Shown: positions 7,982 through 62,009 of the stretch, in pieces
Numbering within the stretch: the first letter of the stretch is position 1
Layout of the letters: every line of letters begins with the position of its first letter
DNA from: Natrinema sp. SYSU A 869
GTDB lineage: Archaea; Halobacteriota; Halobacteria; Halobacteriales; Natrialbaceae
Length of the DNA stretch: 64,000 bases
Reading direction: 5' to 3'
Assembly: GCF_019879105.1 (NCBI RefSeq)
Contig: NZ_CP082249.1
Coordinates: forward strand, 2,232,001 to 2,296,000
Notes under the pieces: generated by a model
Told to the model about the DNA's origin: nothing
Databases searched by the model: none
Seen by the model: the letters and a program-made list of their open reading frames with translations, nothing else
Position numbers and translations under genes: made by a program

Positions 7982-8116
7982 TTCTCTTGCCGCCCGTTCT
8001 CCGATTGGATGGTGAGGGATTCGGCCCGCTCGAGACCATAGCTACCGCCAATGGGTTCGGACTGCTGTCGGCCGGTCTATCCCGCCGACTGAAACGAATC
8101 GATCGGTGTGATGACG

Positions 8117-9349
8117 TTACTCAGCTGTCTCATACGTAACTGGCAACGATTCGACGCCGTAGATAAGTGAACTCCGGGTCGGCTGTAGTTCGGTGTCGAC
8201 CAGCTCGATGGTCGCCGTTCGCTCGAGGAGTTCTTCGAAAGCGACTGCAGCCTCGAGGCGAGCGAGCGGTGCGCCGAGACAATAGTGGGTCCCATACCCG
8301 AAGCCGAGATGCTGGTTCGGTGTTCTGTCGGGGACAAACGTACCGGGGTCGTCGAATTGTCGTTCGTCACGGTTCGCCGACCCGAGCCAGACGATGATAC
8401 GATCGCCTGCTTCGATCGTCTCATCCTGCATCGTCACGTCCTCGGTCGCAACTCGGGTCATCGCTTGGACCGGTGATCGGTATCGCAATACTTCTTCGAT
8501 CGCCGTCTGTAAGTCGGCGTCGCCGCGAAGTTCCTCGAATAGATCGTGATTGCTGAAGCACCGGACTGCGTTTGTGATGAGGTTCGTTGTTGTAATATTG
8601 CCGGCGACAAGTAATAGAATACTTGTTCCGAGCGCTTCCTCCTCCGAGAGTCGCGATCCGTCCGCGCGTTCACGCGTGACGAGCTGGGTCATGAGGTCGT
8701 CCCGCGGTGTCTCGCGACGATCCTTGATCATCTCGAAGAAGTAGCTGGCCATTTCCATCTGGGCAGCCTGCTGGCGTTCGGTGAATTCCTTAGTGTCCTC
8801 GTCGGTGCTCGCGGCCTCGACGAGCGTGTTAGACCAGCGTTTGAACCGATCGCGGTCCTCGGCTGGGACCCCGAGAAGTTCGGCGATGACGACAACTGGA
8901 AGCGGATACGCAAACGTCTCGACGAGATCCATCGTTCCGTCCTCGCCCGTGACCGCCTCAGAGAGAAGATCGGTTGCGAAGTCGCGGATCTCGGGTTCGA
9001 GTTCCCTGAGGGCTCGCGGTTCGAATGCGTCGTTAACGACGCCACGAAGCTCGTCGTGGCGCGGCGAATCCTGGAACAACATCGTCTCGAAGAGCAGCCC
9101 TTCCTCAGGCCGATCGGGCTCCTGGAACTCGTCGGCCAATCGTGGATTGACGGAGAATGTATCGTCGTCGGCAAGGATCCGCTTGACGTCTTCGTACCGA
9201 AAAACGTCCCAGGTACGACGAGCCGGATCATATCGGACCGGTGCATCCGCACGCATCTCACGGTACCAGTCGAATGGCTCGAGCCACGCCTCTCGAGACG
9301 CGAGTTCGTCAGGGAGTACCTGCAGGCCCTGTGGATCTGTCGAGCTCAT
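8117..9349 (-). CDS. Cytochrome P450 with an atypical I-helix
   Basis: 410 residues from the ATG at 9349 (MSSTDP); a longer frame to 9394 exists but starts with a hydrophobic tail unlike class I P450s. Soluble bacterial-type P450: ExxR motif in EVLRYRSP, haem-binding FGYGTHYCLG with ligand C357. The I-helix reads A249-G-N-I-T-T; the acidic (or His) residue that normally precedes the conserved Thr in the proton-relay motif is Ile252. Codons are visibly AT-richer than in neighbours (for example ATT, CTA and TTA runs), and an 86-bp MITE lies 85 bases before the start, suggesting a transferred gene. It sits inside the methylamine island on the opposite strand; a role in N- or O-demethylation is speculative. 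Confidence 0.9.
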   Translation of the reverse strand: MSSTDPQGLQVLPDELASREAWLEPFDWYREMRADAPVRYDPARRTWDVFRYEDVKRILADDDTFSVNPRLADEFQEPDRPEEGLLFETMLFQDSPRHDELRGVVNDAFEPRALRELEPEIRDFATDLLSEAVTGEDGTMDLVETFAYPLPVVVIAELLGVPAEDRDRFKRWSNTLVEAASTDEDTKEFTERQQAAQMEMASYFFEMIKDRRETPRDDLMTQLVTRERADGSRLSEEEALGTSILLLVAGNITTTNLITNAVRCFSNHDLFEELRGDADLQTAIEEVLRYRSPVQAMTRVATEDVTMQDETIEAGDRIIVWLGSANRDERQFDDPGTFVPDRTPNQHLGFGYGTHYCLGAPLARLEAAVAFEELLERTATIELVDTELQPTRSSLIYGVESLPVTYETAE

Positions 9350-9433
9350 ATTAATTGAACGCCAGATAGAGAGAAAAACGTTCGGGGGTACCACCGTCGA
9401 ATCGGATGACCAGCGAGTCAGTCGGACTGCTGA

Positions 9434-9519
9434 CTATAGTAGTCACTGAAACGATTTACACACTGATTGCATAGCTGTCACGCGATTAGGTGTGCAATGA
9501 CTTTCAGTGGCTGCTATAG
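9434..9519. mobile_element. 86-bp MITE, copy 1
   Basis: Non-coding element with imperfect terminal inverted repeats: CTATAGTAGTCACTGAAA at 9434-9451 and TTTCAGTGGCTGCTATAG at 9502-9519 (16 of 18 positions pair). The same 86-bp element occurs at 44774-44859 in opposite orientation, with high identity through the interior as well. It encodes nothing and has MITE form; it must be moved by a transposase encoded elsewhere. It lies between the P450 gene and the dimethylglycine dehydrogenase gene. Confidence 0.8.
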
Positions 9520-9622
9520 AGCCATCTACTGACCGAGCGTTCCACACTGAGCAGGCCTGAAAAGGGGGTGAAATAGAGCCTCACTCGATCGAATTTCTGA
9601 ATCAAACCAAAGCCCACCGGTT

Positions 9623-18029: not shown

Positions 18030-19136
18030 TCAGTCCGCGGTCGGTTCGTCGGGGCCGGGGCCGACTCGCTGTTCGCGATCACGGTTTCGGGCGGTACGCC
18101 AGTGGCCGTAGAGACCGCGAACGAGCGCGCCGAGTCCCAGCAGGAGGACGAGCAGGTTGATTGCCTCGCCGACGATGGGGACGGGAAGCCGAGACAGGGC
18201 GGCACCGGCAACCAGCCCGACGACGAGTGCGAGCCAACGGTTACCGAGGCCGACCAGCGAGAGGATCCACATGGCGACAGCGAAGCGACCGTAGATGATG
18301 CCGATCCAGAGCAACAGGGCGAACACGAAGCCGCCAACGAACGACAGCGGAATCCCGACGACGGTGATCGCGAGCGCGATCAGGAGGATCGGAATCCCCA
18401 CGAACACGAGCAGCCCGACCAGCCCGGAGCGCAGGGGGCCCGACGCGACGCGGTCGGCAACCCCGTCGGAGAACCGCGGGAATAGCGCGAGCAACACGGC
18501 TCCGAGCAGCAGGTTCACCGCCAGAACATAGGCCGTGAACAGCCACGACGCGAAGGGCTGGATCGTCGGTGCGACGTCGATACCGAGCGAGGAATCCTCT
18601 ACGATGTCGCCCGCGACTGCGTCGGTGTTGCCCTCGAGATCGCCGTCGTACCGCAGATCGCCCGCAATCGAGGCGCTCTCCCCCAGCCGGATCGTCTCGG
18701 CTCCGATTTCGGCGTCGCCCTCGACCGTGCCGTCGATCGTCGCGCTCCCGACGCCGGCCGTGAGAGTGTTGCCGACGGTGCCGGTCTCGGTGATGGTGAG
18801 GCTCCCTGCGCCGACGTTGACGTCACCGCCGGCGGTCCCGGCGATGGTCACACTCCCGCCGGCGGCCTCGAGGTCGCCGCCGACCTCGCCGGTGCGCTCG
18901 ATCCGCACGTCCCCGCCGACGGCGCTAACATCGCTGGTGACAGTCCCGCGGACGACGACGCTCCCGCCGAACGCATCGAGACTGTCGACCGTCTCGCCCT
19001 CCTCGACGACGACCGTCCCGCCGGTCTGGCCGTCGGTCTGGGCGGCGACCGTCACCGGGACGGTGCCGGTGACGACAACGAGGGCGATCAGCAGTGCAAC
19101 AGCGAATCGTGACAGTGAGTCGGTTCCGAACAGCAT
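18030..19136 (-). CDS. Secreted bactofilin-like (polymer-forming) domain plus multi-pass membrane domain
   Basis: 368 residues. A signal peptide or N-terminal anchor (residues about 9-31) precedes a repetitive region (about 38-165) of short Gly-rich strands such as [27 protein letters not shown] and [17 protein letters not shown]. This is the right-handed beta-helix repeat of bactofilins (polymer-forming cytoskeletal domain). About five membrane segments follow (from about 195), then a short charged tail. With an N-terminal signal, the beta-helix would lie outside the membrane, unlike classical cytoplasmic bactofilins. Possibly a cell-envelope scaffold; function not established. Confidence 0.75.
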
Positions 19137-19301
19137 GGATTTCGCTTCCGCGAGCAGGGAGTAAAAATTGTTACTCAGGTATCAAGTCCCGGACCGGTTC
19201 GGACGGGTACATTACTCTCCGTGATGAGCCGTCGCGTGTCGTCGTCGGTACCTCCGCGGATTCCGGTGGCATCGACGGAACTCGAGAACGACCTTCGGTC
19301 G

Positions 19302-19309
19302 TTTTATCT
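19302..19309 (+). promoter_or_regulatory. TATA box for rfcS
   Basis: TTTTATCT centred about 27 bases before ATG 19332. The spacing implies a leaderless transcript and selects ATG 19332 over the in-frame upstream starts at 19221-19224. Confidence 0.55.
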
Positions 19310-19331
19310 TGCGGCCCCACCTTCGACCGGT

Positions 19332-20324
19332 ATGAGCGAGGCCGACGCCGAGGCGGCGGAGCCAACACCCGGCAAGACCGAAGTCTGGATCGAGAAGTAC
19401 CGCCCGGAGCGGCTCGACGATATCAAGGGCCACGAAGATATCATTCCTCGGCTCGAGAACTACGTCGAGCAAGACGATCTCCCCCACCTCCTTTTCGCAG
19501 GCCCAGCAGGCACAGGAAAGACGACAGCAGCGAAGAGCATTGCTCGAGAAGTCTACAACGACGACTGGCGGGAGAACTTCCTCGAGCTCAACGCCTCCGA
19601 CCAGCGCGGGATCGATGTCGTCCGCGACCGGATCAAGGACTTCGCGCGCTCGAGCTTTGGTGGCTACGACCACCGCATCATCTTTCTGGACGAGGCCGAC
19701 GCGCTGACCTCCGACGCCCAGTCCGCGCTGCGCCGAACGATGGAGCAGTTCTCGAACAACACTCGGTTTATCCTCTCGTGTAACTACTCGAGCCAGATCA
19801 TCGACCCCATCCAGTCGCGGTGTGCAGTCTTCCGATTCACCGAACTCACCGAGAGTGCCATCGAGGCACAGGTTCGGGAAATCGCCGCCACCGAGGATAT
19901 CGAGGTGACCGACGACGGCGTCGACGCCCTGGTCTATGCGGCCGACGGCGACATGCGGAAGGCGATCAACGCCCTGCAGGCTGCCGCCGTGATGGGCGAG
20001 ACCGTCGATGAGGAGACCGTCTTCGCGATCACTGCCACCGCCCGTCCCGAGGAGGTCGAGGCGATGGTCGAGCACGCTATCGACGGCGACTTCACCGCAG
20101 CCCGCGCCGCCTTGGAGGATCTCTTGACCGAGCGCGGGCTCGCCGGCGGTGACGTCATCGACCAACTGCATCGGTCGGCCTGGGAGTTCGACATCTCAGA
20201 GGGGGCGACGGTCCGCCTCCTCGAGCGACTCGGCGAAGTGGACTACCGAATCACTGAGGGCGCGAACGAGCGGCTGCAACTCGAGGCAATGCTCGCGTCG
20301 CTGGCGCTCGACGCGGATGACTGA
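19332..20324 (+). CDS. rfcS: Replication factor C small subunit (clamp loader)
   Basis: 330 residues. AAA+ ATPase that, with the large subunit, loads PCNA onto primed DNA. N-terminal [21 protein letters not shown] is the RFC box; Walker [11 protein letters not shown] begins at residue 57; the Walker B DEAD box is D120-E-A-D123; the SRC motif supplying the arginine finger is in [11 protein letters not shown]. The C-terminal collar region is complete. No intein is present, although haloarchaeal rfc genes often carry them. The open frame extends upstream to 19221, but the TATA position and family N-terminus support 19332. Confidence 0.96.
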
Positions 20325-20342
20325 CTGTCGGTCAGTTCCCTT

Positions 20343-22487
20343 TTATTCGCCGTCGCTTGCGTCGACGCCGCGGAACGCGAAGGCGATGCGACCGTCGTTC
20401 TCCGCGACACCGACGTTCCAGCCGTGGGCGTCGGCAATACGTTCGACGGTGCCGAGCTCGAAGCCAGTGCCGTCGGCCGCGGCCAACTGACCGGGAACGG
20501 GATCCGTCGCGATCCCGCTGTCAGCGTCCGGGGCGTCGGTTTCGGGGTCACGTCGAGCGATGTAGAAGCCGTCGTCAGTCGCACCGACGGTGACCACTGT
20601 CGTTTCGTCGGTCGTGCTCGGCGTCTCGTCACCCGCGCCGGCCGTCTCGTCGCCACTCTCGTCTCCGGACTCGCCATCGCTCGCCTCGTCGACCACAGCT
20701 CCCAACAGATGCTCGAACAGTTCCTGCAGCCGCGCTTTGTCCGCCTCGAGCACGCGGTCATCGGAGGCCTGAGTCACGAGCCGTGCATCGCCGGTCTCGA
20801 CGGCGACCCAGGCCCGCCGCGCGACGTCGTGGATGGCGATGGGTTCGGTCTCGACGAGTACGCCGTCCTGCCGAGCGATCGCGACGAGCTGATCGACGAG
20901 TTCCCGTAACCGCTCCTGTGCGTCGTCGACCTCCGCGAAGTGTTCGGCGTCGCCGGTCTCGTTGGCGAGTTCGAGGTAGCCGCGGGCGACGTTCAGCGGC
21001 GTCCGCACGTCCTCGTCGACTAGCTCCGCGATCGTCTCGAGTCGCGCTTCGACGGCGGCTAACTCCCGCTCGCGGCGGTTCGCCTCGGTCACGTCGCTGT
21101 ATACGATCAACCCTTCGGGATTGTGGTCGCCCCGCTCCCCGCCAGCGCTAGTAGCCTCGTCGTCGCTTGCGCCCGCGTCGACCGGCACCAGCGTCAGCAG
21201 GAACTCGCGGACACCGTCGACGGTCTCCCGACGACTGACGAGTTGGCGGCGCTTGCCCGATCGGAGCGACTCGAGCAGCGTCGTCCGCCGTTGCTCGAGT
21301 CCCGGTGGGACGGTGTCCTCGTCGACGGGCTCGCCGACGATCGACTCGGGATCGGTGCCGAAGACCTCGCTGAAGGTGTCGTTGCTGTCCCGGACGATCG
21401 GTCGCCCGTCGTCGATCTCGTAGCGGACCGCCGGTTCCGGGATATTCGCGAACAGGGCCCGGAAGCGATCGCGTTCCTCGGCAAGGCGGTCGCGCTCGGC
21501 CGCTAGCTCGTCGCGTTCGGTTGCCAGCCGGTCTCGCTCCGTTTGCAGTCGGTCGCGTTCCTGACGCAGCTGCTCGCGGGCCGTGCTCTGGCTCGCATCG
21601 GCGTCGATTCGCTCGAGGATCGCAGCAGCGAATCGGCACCACTCGACGAGGGGATCGCAGTCGCGCTCGTCGAACGCTGCCGCCTCCTCGGCGGCGACCT
21701 GAAGGATGCCGATATCGCCGACCGGGAGACTGCACAGCGATGTGACCCCCTCGAGAGGGGCTGCCAGCCGGTCGTCGGTCGCGATATCGTCGATGCGAAG
21801 CGCTTCGCCCGTCCGGAGGGCCTCGTCGAGGGCCCCGTCACGCGGGATTGACTCGAGCTCGTCTTCCGGGACTCCCGGCGCGGTCGCCCGGGGTGTGAAC
21901 TCCCCGAAGTGAACCGTCGACAGCCAGCAGTACTCGCACGCGAGGGAATCGGCTGCGGTCTCGACCAGCAACTCGAAGACTTGGTCTCGGTCGCGGCAGG
22001 CCGCCAGTTCGGGGACCGACTCAAGGAAGCGATCGGCGGGCCCAGGCGACGCCGCGTGTTCGGTGTCTTCTGCGCTCTCGACGCCGCGACAGACCCACTC
22101 GATTTCGTCCGCGAGGTGGGAAACGGCGTCATCGGTGTCCCGGCGGACGTAGCCGTCGATACCGTCGGTTGACCGCGCTGCGGTCGGCGCGAACGACGCG
22201 TCGGTAAAGAGGATCACCGGTGTGGAGCCACAGGCCTCGACGACCTCGAGCAGGGCGGCACCCGCCGCCGTCGTCGGCGTCTCAGCGAAGACGACGCAGT
22301 CGGCCTCGGGGGCCCAGTTACGGACGCGATCGACGGTCGTGATGGCATGGACCGACCGTTCGGGGCCCGATCGGACCCCCTCGAGAGCGGCAGCGCCGTC
22401 GCTGGCATCCGTCTCCGAGTCAGCCACATAGAGCACCGTTCGTGGTCGCTGATCCGCCGGCGCGTCTGTCGTTCCGTCGCCGTTCAA
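20343..22487 (-). CDS. Degenerate sensor histidine kinase (receiver-like, GAF, PAS, HisKA-like)
   Basis: 714 residues. Order: receiver-like N-terminus (RTVLYVADSETDA, about 16-125), GAF (about 160-295; cysteines in SLACEYCWLS), an Arg/Glu coiled coil with near-repeats (RQERDRLQTERDRL, about 300-340), PAS (FRALFANIPEPAVRYEI, about 343-465), then a HisKA/HATPase-like end. The H-box reads VDEDVRTPLNVARG; E492 stands where the phosphorylated His should be. The N-box (LQELFEHLLGAVVDE) lacks its Asn, and no G1 DxGxG box is seen; that region is an acidic Thr/Ser/Glu linker. The protein probably cannot autophosphorylate. Convergent with rfcS (18 bases). Confidence 0.8.
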   Translation of the reverse strand: MNGDGTTDAPADQRPRTVLYVADSETDASDGAAALEGVRSGPERSVHAITTVDRVRNWAPEADCVVFAETPTTAAGAALLEVVEACGSTPVILFTDASFAPTAARSTDGIDGYVRRDTDDAVSHLADEIEWVCRGVESAEDTEHAASPGPADRFLESVPELAACRDRDQVFELLVETAADSLACEYCWLSTVHFGEFTPRATAPGVPEDELESIPRDGALDEALRTGEALRIDDIATDDRLAAPLEGVTSLCSLPVGDIGILQVAAEEAAAFDERDCDPLVEWCRFAAAILERIDADASQSTAREQLRQERDRLQTERDRLATERDELAAERDRLAEERDRFRALFANIPEPAVRYEIDDGRPIVRDSNDTFSEVFGTDPESIVGEPVDEDTVPPGLEQRRTTLLESLRSGKRRQLVSRRETVDGVREFLLTLVPVDAGASDDEATSAGGERGDHNPEGLIVYSDVTEANRRERELAAVEARLETIAELVDEDVRTPLNVARGYLELANETGDAEHFAEVDDAQERLRELVDQLVAIARQDGVLVETEPIAIHDVARRAWVAVETGDARLVTQASDDRVLEADKARLQELFEHLLGAVVDEASDGESGDESGDETAGAGDETPSTTDETTVVTVGATDDGFYIARRDPETDAPDADSGIATDPVPGQLAAADGTGFELGTVERIADAHGWNVGVAENDGRIAFAFRGVDASDGE

Positions 22488-22616
22488 TTGTCTATATGGG
22501 GTGACTGTCTTCCACGATAAAACTTTGCCGTCTGTATCGACCGCTGAGCCGTCCGCGTCGATCGATGGATTCAGGGTCGAAAAGGATGACTGTCTGCCGA
22601 TCGGCGACCGCTCGAG

Positions 22617-23312
22617 CTACGGATCCACAGTCGCGTGATCGTCACTGGTGTGCCACGCCGAACGGATCACGGCGAGCCAGTAGCAGCCGACGACAGCACC
22701 GGTCACGAGCCAGACGCTACCCACCGGTGCGTACCACTCGAGCATGTAGCCGGGTGCGGTGTCGACGAACCGGCCGACGCCGACGGCGGCGGTAATCGCA
22801 CACCCCGTAACGAACAGCAACTGATTCTCGTCGACGGTTCCGGTCCGCCAGAATCGAAGCGAACCCGCTCGCCGGACGTCGGCGGAGACGAGCGCGACTG
22901 CGGCCGCGGCCGCGCCGATGGTCAGCGCGATCGCAATGTCGAGATCGAACACATACGCGCCGGCGACGGCGTCCCCGATGCCGACCGGGACGAGCGGGAG
23001 AACGAACGAGAGCCCCGGGCCGCCGTTCCAGGCCGCATAGCAGAACGGGACGAGCAGGATCGTCGGCGTCACCAGCGCGATGAAAACCATGCTGAGCGCG
23101 TCCAACCCCGTCGTCACCGTACTGCGAAGGGCGTCGGCGATTGGGACCCTCGTTCCGAGATGGCTGGCGAGAAGCGTTGCGATCAGTCCCAGTAAAGAGG
23201 CTACCGTGAGCGCCGTCCGTTGACGCTCGAGGCCGAGCAGCGGGTGCTCGAGGATGGCACCGACGGCCGCTTGTACGCCGATCGATTGGCGGTCGTCCGT
23301 GTCGGAACTCAT
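22617..23312 (-). CDS. Hypothetical multi-pass membrane protein
   Basis: 231 residues from ATG 23312 (MSSDTDDRQS); about six membrane segments (for example LTVASLLGLIATLLASHL, ALVTPTILLVPFCYAAW, IAIALTIGAAAAAVALV). The start overlaps the stop of the upstream Tat-signal gene by four bases (ATGA), so the two are translationally coupled. A longer open frame upstream is out of phase with the real upstream gene and is not used. No known family recognised; the coupling suggests it works with the secreted neighbour. Confidence 0.7.
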   Translation of the reverse strand: MSSDTDDRQSIGVQAAVGAILEHPLLGLERQRTALTVASLLGLIATLLASHLGTRVPIADALRSTVTTGLDALSMVFIALVTPTILLVPFCYAAWNGGPGLSFVLPLVPVGIGDAVAGAYVFDLDIAIALTIGAAAAAVALVSADVRRAGSLRFWRTGTVDENQLLFVTGCAITAAVGVGRFVDTAPGYMLEWYAPVGSVWLVTGAVVGCYWLAVIRSAWHTSDDHATVDP

Positions 23313-23964
23313 GACGTTTCGGCGATGACCGTTGCGAACCCGTCGTGGTCGGGCCCCTTCTCGTTTTGCAGGTCGATCGCACTGGGGGTGATCCCCCAGC
23401 CGTCCGCGGCGAAGATCGCCTCGATGGTGTCCCGCCCGCGCTGATAGGAGGCGATACCGTGTTTCGGGCGAGCGCTCGTGTCCTCGTGAGCCTGCATCGA
23501 GACGACGCTTTCGAACGACCAACAGCGAACGTGTCGCCGGCCGTTGGTCCCATAGTACGTTTGCGCGGCCGTCGCCTGCTGGCGGACGTATTCCTCGTCG
23601 GTTCGATCCCAGGCGAACCGGGTGTACTCCTCGGGATTGCGGACCCACCCTTCGTCCACGAGGACGGACATGACCCGCTCGAGGCCGCGTTCGCCGTCGG
23701 CGTCGGGGAGGAGCACGACGTTGAACGGCGCGGTCGCACGGTAGCCGTTGCTCGTTGAGTCGTAGTGGTAGCGGCCGATCGGCGAGTCAGTTTCCTCGGT
23801 AATCGGCTCGTCGAGCCAGTCGGCGATTTCCTCGGGGGAGCTGCGGCCTCGACCGTGCCGCTTGGATCCGTCGCATCGGGCGGCGACGGGAGGAGGGTGA
23901 TGCCGATAGTCGTTCCGAGACCGGTCAGCCCGGCCTTTCGGAGCACAGACCGTCGCGTCGACAT
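23309..23964 (-). pseudogene. Tat-signal secreted protein, frameshifted
   Basis: The N-terminus [25 protein letters not shown] (from ATG 23964) is a twin-arginine signal. The frame then breaks; a second frame resumes with [24 protein letters not shown] and continues to QNEKGPDHDGFATVIAETS and stop. Adding one C to the C5 run (G5 on + strand, 23834-23838) joins both parts into one protein of about 218 residues. The mature part (VLLPDADGERGLERVMSVLVDEGWVRNPEEY) is a soluble domain I cannot name. Either a recent 1-base deletion or a base-calling error; the downstream gene is coupled to it and intact. Confidence 0.7.
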
Positions 23965-24247
23965 CGTCAGCGTTCGCCCTCGTTCCCCTGCCCGTGACCG
24001 TCCGCGGGGCGATTCGCGATCGACTGATCCCTCCCGCTGGATCGTGTCACCTGTGCACCCATCTGCTGTCGTTCTATTCCCACCATTATCGATGTATTTT
24101 ACCTCGGACTATTTATCATTTTCCTATGGTTTTCTCCGGCAAACACGGTCTCCCGGTGCGCTACGGCCGATCACGTTCGCGTCGGACGATCGTTTTGCGA
24201 CGCCAGTTGCGGAACTGTTTACGCGCTGCAGGGCCAATACACGCGTA

Positions 24248-27025
24248 ATGAGCGAACTAGAGGAGGAGTACCGCCTCGAGTACTTCGAGGAGGAAGGATT
24301 CGAGCGCAAGGAGTGCCCGGAGTGTGGCGCTTACTTCTGGACGCGCGATCAGGATAGGGAGACCTGCGGTGAGCCCCCCTGCGCGGAGTACGACTTCATC
24401 GACAATTCTGGATTCGACGAGTCGTACGACCTGACGGAGATGCGCGAGGCCTTTCTCTCTTACTTCGAGGCCAACGAGCACGAGCGAATCGATCCCTACC
24501 CCGTCGCGGCCAACCGCTGGCGCGACGACGTCCTGTTGACGCAGGCGTCGATCTATGACTTCCAGCCGCTGGTGACCAGCGGCGAGACACCCCCACCAGC
24601 GAACCCGCTGACGGTCTCCCAACCCTGTATTCGGATGCAGGACATCGACAACGTCGGCAAGACGGGTCGACACACCATGGCCTTCGAGATGATGGCCCAC
24701 CACGCGTTCAACACGCGTGAGGATGTCGAGAAAGACGAGTACGCCTACTACGGCGAGGTGTATTGGAAGGACCAGACCGTCGAACTCTGCGACGGCTTCT
24801 TCGAGTCGATGGGCGTCGATCTCGAGGAAGTCATCTACATCGAGGACCCATGGGTCGGCGGCGGGAACGCCGGTCCGGCAATCGAGGTCATCTATCGGGG
24901 CGTCGAACTCGCTACGCTCGTCTTCATGTCGATGGAGCAGGACTCGGACGGCGAGTACGAGATGAAAGACGGGAACCGCTACAGCCCGATGGACACCTAT
25001 ATCGTCGACACGGGCTACGGGCTCGAGCGGTGGACCTGGGTCTCCCAGGGCACCCCGACGGTCTACGAGGCGGTCTACCCCGACATGATTGCGTTCCTCA
25101 AAGAGAACGCGGGGCTCGAGCACACCGACGAGCAGGAGGCACTCATCCACCGGGCCGCCAAGCTCGCGGGCCACATGGATATCGACGAGGCCGAGGACAT
25201 GGAAACCGCCCGCGGCGAGATTGCCGGCGAACTCGATGTCGACGCTGCGGAACTCGAGGAACTCATGGAGCCCCTCGAGGACATCTATGCGATCGCGGAC
25301 CACTGCCGCACGCTCGCCTACATGCTCGGCGACGGCATCGTCCCCTCGAACGTCGGCACGGGCTATCTCGCACGGATGGTCCTTCGCCGAACCAAGCGGC
25401 TCTGTGACACGATCGGCGTCGACGCACCGCTGGACGAACTCGTCGACATGCAGGCTGAGCGCCTCGAGTACGAGAATCGCGACACCATCCGCGACATCGT
25501 CCGCACCGAGGTCGAGAAGTACCGCGAGACCTTAGAGCGGGGCGGTCGACGGGTCGAGACCCTGGCCGAGGAGTACGCGAAGAAGGGCGAACCGATCCCG
25601 ACCGACGAATTGATCGAGCTCTACGACTCTCACGGCATTCAGCCCGATATGGTCGCTGAGATCGCCGAGGAGACCGGCGCAGACGTCGAGGTTCCCGACG
25701 ACTTCTACAGCCTCGTCGCAAAGCGCCACGACACGCCCGAGGCGGTCGCGGAGGCCGAGGAGGACGAGGACGAGCGCTTCGAGGATCTCCCGGAGACGGA
25801 GAAACTCTACTATGACGACCAGCAGCGAACGCAGTTCGAGGCAGTCGTCTTGGATGTCTTCGAGCGCGAGGACGGCTATGATGTCGTCTTAGACCAGACG
25901 ATGTTCTACCCCGAGGGCGGTGGCCAGCCCGCGGACACGGGGACGCTCTCGACCGACGACGCAACCGTCGAAGTCGCGGACGTCCAGATCGAGGACGGCG
26001 TTATCCTCCATCGGACCGATGAGGACCCCGGCAAGGGCGAACTGGTCAACGGGCAGGTCGACGGCGGCCGCCGGCGACAGCTCATGCGCCACCACACGGC
26101 GACCCACATCGTCATCCATGCCGCACGGCAGGTCCTCGGCGAGCACATCCGCCAGGCCGGTGCCCAGAAGGGAGTCAAGAGTTCGCGGATCGACGTTCGC
26201 CACTACGACCGAATCGGCCGCGAGGACGTCAAGCGGATCGAGGACCGCGCGAACGAGATCGTGATGGACAACACCTCGGTCTCCCAGGAGTGGCCCGACC
26301 GCCACGACGCCGAGGCAGAACACGGCTTCGATCTCTACCAGGGCGGGATCCCGCCAGGCGAGCAGATCCGGCTGATCCACGTCGCCGATGACACCCAGGC
26401 CTGTGGTGGCACCCACGTCGCCCGAACCGGCGATATCGGCACGATCAAGGTGCTGAACACCGAGCGCGTCCAGGACGGCGTCGAACGGATCACCTTCGCG
26501 GCCGGCGAGGCCGCCATCGAGGCGACCCAGGTCAAAGAGGACGCGCTCTACGAGGCTGCCGAAATCCTCGACGTCTCACCCGAAGACGTGCCCGAGACCG
26601 CCGAACGGTTCTTCGAAGAGTGGAAGGGCCGCGGCAAACAGATCGAGGACCTGAAAGAACAACTCGCCGAGGCCCGCGCCGGTGGCGGTGGCGGCGGGGA
26701 GGAAGTCGATGTTGGCGACACTACGGCCATCGTCCAGCGCCTCGACGCTGACATGGGCGAACTGCGAGCGACCGCCAACGCCCTCGCCGAGGACGGCAAA
26801 ATCGCCGTGCTAGGCAGCGGCGAGAGCGGTGCCCAGTTCGTCGTCGCCGTCCCCGACGGTGTCGGCGTCAATGCCGGCGAGGTCGTCGGCGAACTCGCCG
26901 CCAAGGTCGGCGGCGGCGGTGGCGGTCCGCCGGACTTCGCACAGGGTGGCGGCCCCAATGTTGACGACTTAGACGACGCGCTCGAGGACGCCCCCGATGT
27001 GTTGCGCCAGGTACTGAACGCCTGA
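24248..27025 (+). CDS. alaS: Alanyl-tRNA synthetase, archaeal type
   Basis: 925 residues from ATG 24248; the frame is open much further upstream, but the family N-terminus is [18 protein letters not shown]. The archaeal N-terminal zinc region is present ([25 protein letters not shown]). Class II motifs: [19 protein letters not shown] (motif 2 region) and GYGLERWTW (motif 3). The editing domain has H615-H-T-A-T-H620 and C719-G-G-T-H723, which bind zinc and hydrolyse mischarged seryl- or glycyl-tRNA(Ala). A Gly-rich linker (AGGGGGGEE) precedes the C-Ala domain ([26 protein letters not shown]). Housekeeping gene; a TGTTTACG element centred about 28 bases before the start fits a leaderless promoter. 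Confidence 0.97.
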
Positions 27026-61619: not shown

Positions 61620-62009
61620 ATGCCCACGGTAGAATACCTCAACTACGAAGTACTGGACGATCAGGGCTGGGAGATGGACGACGACGACCTCTTCGCGGAG
61701 GCCGCCGACGCCGGCCTCGACGACGAGGACTACGGCACGCTCGATGTTGCCGAGGGCGAATACATCCTTGAGGCGGCCGAGGCGCAGGGCTACGACTGGC
61801 CCTTCTCGTGTCGCGCCGGTGCCTGTGCGAACTGCGCCGCGATTGTCTTCGAGGGCGAGATCGACATGGACATGCAGCAGATCCTCTCCGACGAGGAAGT
61901 CGAGGAGAAAGACGTCCGCCTGACCTGTATCGGATCGGCCGAAACCGACGAGGTCAAGATCGTCTACAACGCCAAGCACCTCGACTACCTGCAGAACCGC
62001 GTCATTTAA
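61620..62009 (+). CDS. Halophilic plant-type [2Fe-2S] ferredoxin
   Basis: 129 residues from ATG 61620 ([46 protein letters not shown]). The acidic N-terminal insertion is the feature of halophilic ferredoxins. Cluster ligands: C-x4-C-x2-C in [20 protein letters not shown] and the fourth Cys in [10 protein letters not shown]. It carries one low-potential electron for 2-oxoacid oxidoreductases and other partners. As the only ferredoxin in the window it is a candidate electron donor for the Rieske oxygenase and P450, but the distance (about 55 kb) gives no direct link. Confidence 0.95.

Follow-up and report, generated by a model that had tools for sequence, protein, structure and literature searches.

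A CYP109-like cytochrome P450 of Natrinema with isoleucine in place of the I-helix acid, and the acid site of its archaeal relatives

The P450 gene, the insertion that carries it and its neighbourhood

The analysed window is a 64,000-nucleotide stretch of Natrinema sp. SYSU A 869 DNA (contig NZ_CP082249.1, positions 2,232,001 to 2,296,000), which lies on the largest contig of the genome (3.9 Mb). It contains a P450 gene with an ATG start at position 9349, read on the minus strand to 8117, and surrounded by genes encoding a Rieske oxygenase, an FAD oxidoreductase (DAO), a DAO+GCV_T protein, a PALP protein and a BCCT transporter. The P450 gene is placed between the DAO+GCV_T gene, which is of the dimethylglycine dehydrogenase type, and the DAO-type gene. 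As a statement of location, the first-pass annotation was therefore right to put it inside a methylamine island. The following features are referred to below (archaeal and bacterial rows are those of the phylogenetic tree).

8117..9349, minus strand: P450 coding sequence, 410 aa, CYP109 and most likely CYP109G (translation; Pfam PF00067, E 1.3e-29)
8588..8605, minus strand: I-helix motif A249-G-N-I252-T253-T254 (translation)
8483..8494, minus strand: ExxR motif, E286 to R289 (E and R in 69/69 archaeal rows)
8273..8302, minus strand: haem-binding motif, F350 to G359, with Cys357 (Cys in 69/69 archaeal rows)
8771..8773, minus strand: Gln193, in the column of CYP109E1 Lys187 and CYP109A2 Arg186 (column comparison)
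8252..8254, minus strand: Glu366 (Cys+9), in the column of CYP109E1 Glu361 (E in 65/69 archaeal and 9/9 bacterial CYP109 rows)
8077..9612, no strand: 1,536-base insertion with the P450 gene and a MITE-like repeat (same-genus comparison)
9434-9519, no strand: MITE-like palindromic repeat, ~86 bp (at least 40 places in the genome)

The site before the I-helix threonine is normally occupied by Asp or Glu, as part of the standard P450 machinery. In the window P450 the I-helix reads LLLVAGNITTTNLITN, with Thr253-Thr254-Thr255 directly after Ile252, whose codon (ATT) occupies positions 8594-8596. Translation of the coding sequence thus bore out the AGNITT motif with Ile252 that had been read at first pass, and the ExxR and haem motifs, described there as intact, are indeed represented by E286, R289 and Cys357. 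An alignment artefact was rejected, since five phmmer alignments (with CYP109E1, CYP109A2, two YjiB/CYP109B4 chains and CYP109B1) run without gaps across the motif and place Glu opposite Ile252. The AlphaFold2 model of the protein has a confident fold (mean pLDDT 90.3, pTM 0.90), and in this predicted structure helix 236-267 is unbroken around Ile252.

The third codon positions of the P450 gene have a GC content (GC3) of 0.67, compared to 0.84-0.88 in five flanking genes, in agreement with the AT-richer codons claimed for it earlier. In another genome of the genus (G008), 37 bases replace window positions 8077-9612 between the same two flanking genes. The GC content of the inserted segment is 0.57. 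Among the matches listed, the two flanks were found adjacent to each other in at least six same-genus genomes (G008, G011, G013, G015, G021 and G022), at 83-93% DNA identity and separated by 37 to 679 bases, too little to accommodate the P450 gene; weaker flank matches may exist in other genomes of the genus. No other P450 match above 50% identity was detected among the 29 genomes of the genus. The nearest relatives belong to other genera, the closest being a homologue of Halorussus marinus (84%).

The MITE that had been reported nearby corresponds to the palindromic repeat, which shares the insert with the P450 gene. Its genomic count is based on scoring 40 of 69 candidates, and copies are present in many same-genus genomes. 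A comparison of the Halorussus marinus locus (L009:176-5689) with window positions 18033-27022 identified genes for alanyl-tRNA synthetase and RFC and a third gene in common, whose order and orientation with respect to the P450 gene agree between the two; in the window the betaine genes are interposed.

The surroundings of CYP109G-like genes were scanned at 36 loci, over as much as 8 kb to either side and over shorter stretches where a contig ended. Homologues of the Rieske, DAO and BCCT genes were found at none of them (0/36), while SHMT was present at two, a PALP homologue at one, and a weak DMGDH/GCV_T match at one. With this result, and with at least six same-genus genomes in which the gene would not fit, the P450 shows no conserved linkage to the betaine/methylamine gene set. 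The neighbourhood varies between genera, with small groups such as Natronococcus sharing one, so the island gives no pointer to the substrate. Among the outcomes first proposed, that of a transferred enzyme of other use is supported by the insertion, the low GC3, the relatives in other genera and the unconserved neighbourhood.

Family assignment and loss of the acid

Membership in the P450 superfamily follows from the PF00067 match, the ExxR and haem Cys motifs and the P450 fold. The best PDB sequence matches (phmmer) were all CYP109 structures (CYP109E1, CYP109A2, CYP109B4/YjiB and CYP109B1), and CYP109 chains occupied Foldseek ranks 1-17 when the model was used as the query. The top structural match was CYP109A2 (5ofq_D; Z 52.2, rmsd 1.7 over 382 residues, 43% identity; VIA-align). 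Assignment of a P450 to a family requires identity above about 40% to its members, and to a subfamily above about 55% to those already named. The window P450 is 42-43% identical to CYP109A2 and CYP109E1, which, together with its position in the tree, places it in CYP109. It is also 67.6-71.3% identical to six plasmid P450s, one match each in records NZ_MN918443, NZ_CP035120, NZ_CP083664, NZ_CP083667, NZ_KX906370 and NZ_CP099994. These records are named CYP109G22, G24-G27 and G32 in Table 2 of PMC9962201; the link was made via the record accessions, not via the named sequences themselves, and on sequence identity the protein most likely belongs to the CYP109G subfamily. It departs from the bacterial CYP109 signature AGNETTT in having Ile252 instead of Glu, a trait that lies outside the naming rule. 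Assignment to CYP152 was rejected, since Ile252-Thr253 stands where that family has Arg-Pro, and the NCBIfam CypC model scored 19.9 bits, far short of its cut-off of 600.

A search of genome contigs with the P450 as query yielded 48 loci, and 83 of 391 genomes of the same class contained a match at E <= 1e-30; two of those places were left out, one with an inner stop (G260 C63) and one partial (G279 C33). The residue at the acid column was then tabulated for the 140 distinct archaeal CYP109-like sequences that reached at least 225 bits. Neither Asp nor Glu was present in 137 of them, which instead have I (97), V (20), A, S and G (4 each), L (3), H (2) and N, Q and T (1 each); the remaining 3 have E. 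At 500 bits or more, 54/55 archaeal sequences carry I and 1/55 carries V. The column of Thr253 is far more uniform, with T or S in 139/140. Sixteen archaeal sequences scored below 225 bits. Fifteen of these are distant (34-54 bits) and all carry E or D, which indicates that distant haloarchaeal P450s keep the acid, and the sixteenth, a partial CYP109-like copy (206 bits), has I. A sequencing error or a mutation of a single strain was rejected on the grounds of the 137 acid-less sequences.

Bacterial sequences gave a different picture. Each bacterial CYP109 row has Glu at the acid column (9/9; Paenibacillus, Deinococcus, Synechocystis, Bacillus, Priestia and four PDB chains). As a base rate, 29 distinct bacterial P450s (best Pfam matches from 7 genomes) comprised 22 with an acidic residue, 5 with His, 1 with Ile (AGHITT) and 1 that was unplaced; the motif search behind this count is itself biased towards E/D. 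An actinobacterial AGHITT P450 from a Parafrankia genome (L232) shows Ile at this position separately from the archaeal sequences. In the tree, 21 of the 24 bacterial rows are acidic and three are not (V, V and G), so acid-less P450s arise elsewhere too.

A phylogenetic tree of 97 rows was constructed with the motif columns excluded. Rows without the full haem motif, rows at 75 bits or less and, by hand, L055 and L056 were omitted from the input; thinning at 76% identity reduced 161 rows to 90, to which four PDB chains and three distant rows were added. The 69 archaeal CYP109-like rows formed one clade (SH-aLRT 99). In a bootstrap tree from which six long or distant rows had been dropped, the archaeal clade was recovered with UFBoot 99 and SH-aLRT 92, and was present in 200/200 bootstrap trees checked. 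In the 97-row tree it formed a 79-row branch together with the bacterial CYP109 rows and one Streptomyces row (SH-aLRT 98).

The acid is missing in 68 of the 69 rows of the archaeal clade. The single row with Glu (L160) is nested inside it, and its place on the record matches WP_247995870.1, which is named CYP109BK1 in PMC12250468. Two further archaeal sequences with Glu (L183 and L184) scored above 225 bits; the first falls outside the clade, grouped with a Myxococcota row (SH-aLRT 91), and the second, which has the same motif, was thinned out of the tree. A minimum of five changes between acid and no acid is required on the tree. These were read as a single loss at the archaeal clade, a Glu appearing once within it and three scattered bacterial losses.

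Judged from these sequences, the missing acid is a trait of the family and not a local oddity, and the meaning first given to it was too local. The early remark that ATT is not one base away from GAA is of no consequence, the change being older than the archaeal clade as a whole.

Several other P450s with unusual acid sites were recorded during the survey. The Natrinema genome contains a second acid-less CYP109-like P450 (L151:3001-4176, minus strand; G000 C2:338413-339588) with the motif AGNITTTNLL, 46% identical to the window P450 and of a group common in the family. The paralogue group L178, L181 and L187 has an I-helix that is one residue short at the motif in the alignment (GG-LSTTHLIDN); it contains a Ser-Thr pair, and an Asp follows at some distance. 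In further paralogues (L146:4492-5682, L156:2986-4188, L160:13021-14436 and L172:3001-4173) the acid site is occupied by Ser (AGHSTT), His (AGSHTT) or Gln (AGSQTT), and these represent natural variants usable for proton-relay tests. A genome of the same order (G043) has 18 matches to the window P450, of which seven have an E-value below 1e-70, and is a case of local expansion of CYP109-like genes.

Possible proton and electron supply without the acid

Five Ala variants of CYP109E1 are reported in a 2025 review of CYP109 (PMC12250468), which treats the I helix for bacterial structures. T246A lost activity, V169A and I241A lost all of it and K187A lost some, while the Ala variant of residue 245 showed unchanged production of 16beta-hydroxytestosterone; the last is printed as 'G245A' and is taken here as E245A, since the listed mutated residue is Glu245. 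The water network of the CYP109E1 crystal is described there as involving the carbonyls of A242 and G243, the hydroxyls of T246 and T247 and the amide of T248. These residues map to A249, G250, T253, T254 and T255 of the window P450 and are identical in 16/16 CYP109G-like rows, so Ile252 takes nothing away from the reported network. With the only reported bacterial relative active without the acid, according to that literature and not to the present analysis, the replacement by Ile252 is probably harmless.

Such tolerance cannot be presumed for all P450s. The matching acid mutant of aromatase, D309N, lost 95% of its activity, and for P450cam D251N an uncoupling of 95% is printed, in a passage on threonine (both PMC9366932). 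By this comparison, tolerance of acid loss looks like a CYP109 trait and not a general one.

A second difference from the bacterial enzymes was found in the pocket. The column of CYP109E1 Lys187 holds R or K in 7/7 bacterial CYP109 rows that have a residue there (two more are gapped) and Q in 15/16 CYP109G-like rows, including Gln193 of the window P450. This basic residue and the I-helix acid may form an acid-base pair, both partners of which would then be absent from CYP109G. The pairing is not strict, as 16/68 acid-less archaeal rows carry R/K at position 193. A compensating acid in the distal pocket was sought in the column comparison and none was found; the acidic gains are D62, D99 and D316 only, which would be surface residues. 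The mapped pocket columns are mostly hydrophobic (L91, L176, V177, L245, V248, V294 and M297).

Six matches to 2Fe-2S ferredoxin domains (PF00111) were detected in the genome, one of them in the window itself (61737-61931; 56.8 bits), far from the P450 gene. Four of the six loci passed a Cys-motif filter and were used as queries, for the 2Fe-2S type only. These queries matched a control ferredoxin locus but gave no hit around the CYP109G-like genes of 33 loci (502 kb). Fusion to a redox domain was considered for two long reading frames (L122 and L123) and rejected, since Pfam shows P450 only.

We consider it likely that the gene encodes a stand-alone CYP109 haem monooxygenase, most likely a CYP109G, that was horizontally acquired and has an acid-independent relay of threonines and water. 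Horizontal transfer would have inserted the gene between two betaine-catabolism genes. Turnover would be driven by O2 and electrons from a general ferredoxin, and the reaction would be hydroxylation of a hydrophobic compound, perhaps a terpenoid or a steroid-like or fatty-acid-like molecule. Protons would reach the Fe-O2 unit via Thr253, Thr254, the backbone carbonyls of A249 and G250 and ordered water, and by this route the neighbouring acid would be dispensable. The relay might be fed by bulk solvent or by Glu366, a possible alternative proton source. A single loss of the acid, no later than the base of the archaeal CYP109 radiation, would have been followed by drift of the position among I, V and other residues.

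Several observations count against this reading: the effects of the acid mutants of aromatase and P450cam; Gln193, in place of the pocket-lining basic residue of bacterial CYP109, whose Ala variant lost some activity in CYP109E1; the lack of a linked 2Fe-2S ferredoxin gene at the 33 loci; an acid-less CYP109-like relative on a Haloarcula plasmid (L205:9718-11182; 48.5%) with Rieske/ring-dioxygenase genes ~3.5 kb away, though this relative is more distant; and the literature searched, which in the parts available gave no report of an active archaeal CYP109.

A bolder proposal is that archaeal CYP109 enzymes represent a second independent acid-free class of P450s besides CYP152, in which the acid was dropped once around a bacteria-to-archaea transfer and has been kept out by selection, with another route to Compound I, either a peroxide shunt or protons from Glu366 or from water on the haem-propionate side. 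We regard this as doubtful. If it were true, the descendants would amount to a natural allelic series in the relay residue (I, V, L, A, G, S, T, N, Q and H), with Glu back in one nested member, CYP109BK1.

Still less probable is that the clade is simply peroxide-driven, with Compound I formed from H2O2 and with poor or uncoupled reduction of O2. The CYP152 peroxygenases likewise do without the acid-alcohol pair (PMC5818669), and the ferredoxin result at the 33 loci points the same way. However, the CYP152 enzymes have Arg-Pro, binding the substrate carboxylate, while the window P450 keeps Thr253 and has no such Arg; its CypC score is far under the cut-off; and peroxide use is not required, given the reported activity of CYP109E1 with Ala at residue 245 (PMC12250468).

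It is quite improbable that the clade performs a reaction without delivery of a second proton, such as isomerisation, dehydration or ferric-peroxo chemistry. The acid site appears free to vary over the ten residues listed above, and certain paralogues also change the Thr or shorten the motif, as might be expected in that case; yet Thr253, Thr254 and Thr255 and the haem Cys are identical in 16/16 CYP109G-like rows, as O2 activation predicts.

Finally, we give hardly any credence to the early idea that a substrate carboxylate, e.g. that of betaine, supplies the proton and ties the P450 to the island: the position between DAO-type and dimethylglycine-dehydrogenase-type genes, the Haloarcula plasmid relative and the substrate-assisted protonation described for CYP152 (PMC5818669) speak for it, but it is left unsupported by the absence of the insertion from at least six same-genus genomes and by the 0/36 linkage, the mapped pocket is mostly hydrophobic, and the clade is acid-less whatever the gene context.

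The observation made at first pass is real and reflects a family trait, for which a plain explanation, the relay of threonines and water, is likely. Nearly all of this archaeal CYP109 radiation has been without the textbook acid since one ancestral change. It thus offers a natural series in which to test whether the acid serves coupling or is kept for substrate or salt-bridge reasons only, in a family with one bacterial member reported to tolerate its loss. The interest lies in the clade-wide loss, the varied replacements and the one nested Glu, of which no prior description was found in a literature search that covered few subscription papers; in the available text of PMC9962201 the term 'I-helix' gives no match.

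Comparison with known systems

CYP109E1 of Bacillus megaterium (PDB 5l90, 5l91, 5l92 and 5l94) is 42% identical to the window P450 and has the same fold (Z 50.3 for 5l91_B). The two share the A-G-x-x-T-T-T network residues, and Val169 and Leu238 of the CYP109E1 pocket are identical here. They differ in that Glu245 of CYP109E1 is Ile252, Lys187 is Gln193, and Phe351, before the haem Cys, is Tyr356. CYP109A2 (PDB 5ofq, 8abr and 8abs), the best structural match (Z 52.2, 43% identity), has Glu244 (AGNETT) and Arg186 where the window P450 has Ile252 and Gln193.

The plasmid CYP109G proteins (G22, G24-G27 and G32; 67.6-71.3% identical) are the closest named group, and AGNITT is present in the three that were fetched (L202, L203 and L204). 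Their gene neighbours are different, the window copy being located in a betaine island on a 3.9-Mb contig.

The CYP152 fatty-acid peroxygenases resemble the window P450 in having no acid in the acid-alcohol pair. Unlike it, they have Arg-Pro for Ile-Thr, a carboxylate-bound substrate and a distant sequence (PMC5818669). Human CYP2D6 belongs to a remote family and is named just as a precedent for an ordinary monooxygenase with Val at the acid site. The residue concerned, Val308, occupies the acid position, before Thr309. This hydrophobic residue is among the ligand contacts of the enzyme (PMC6104999).
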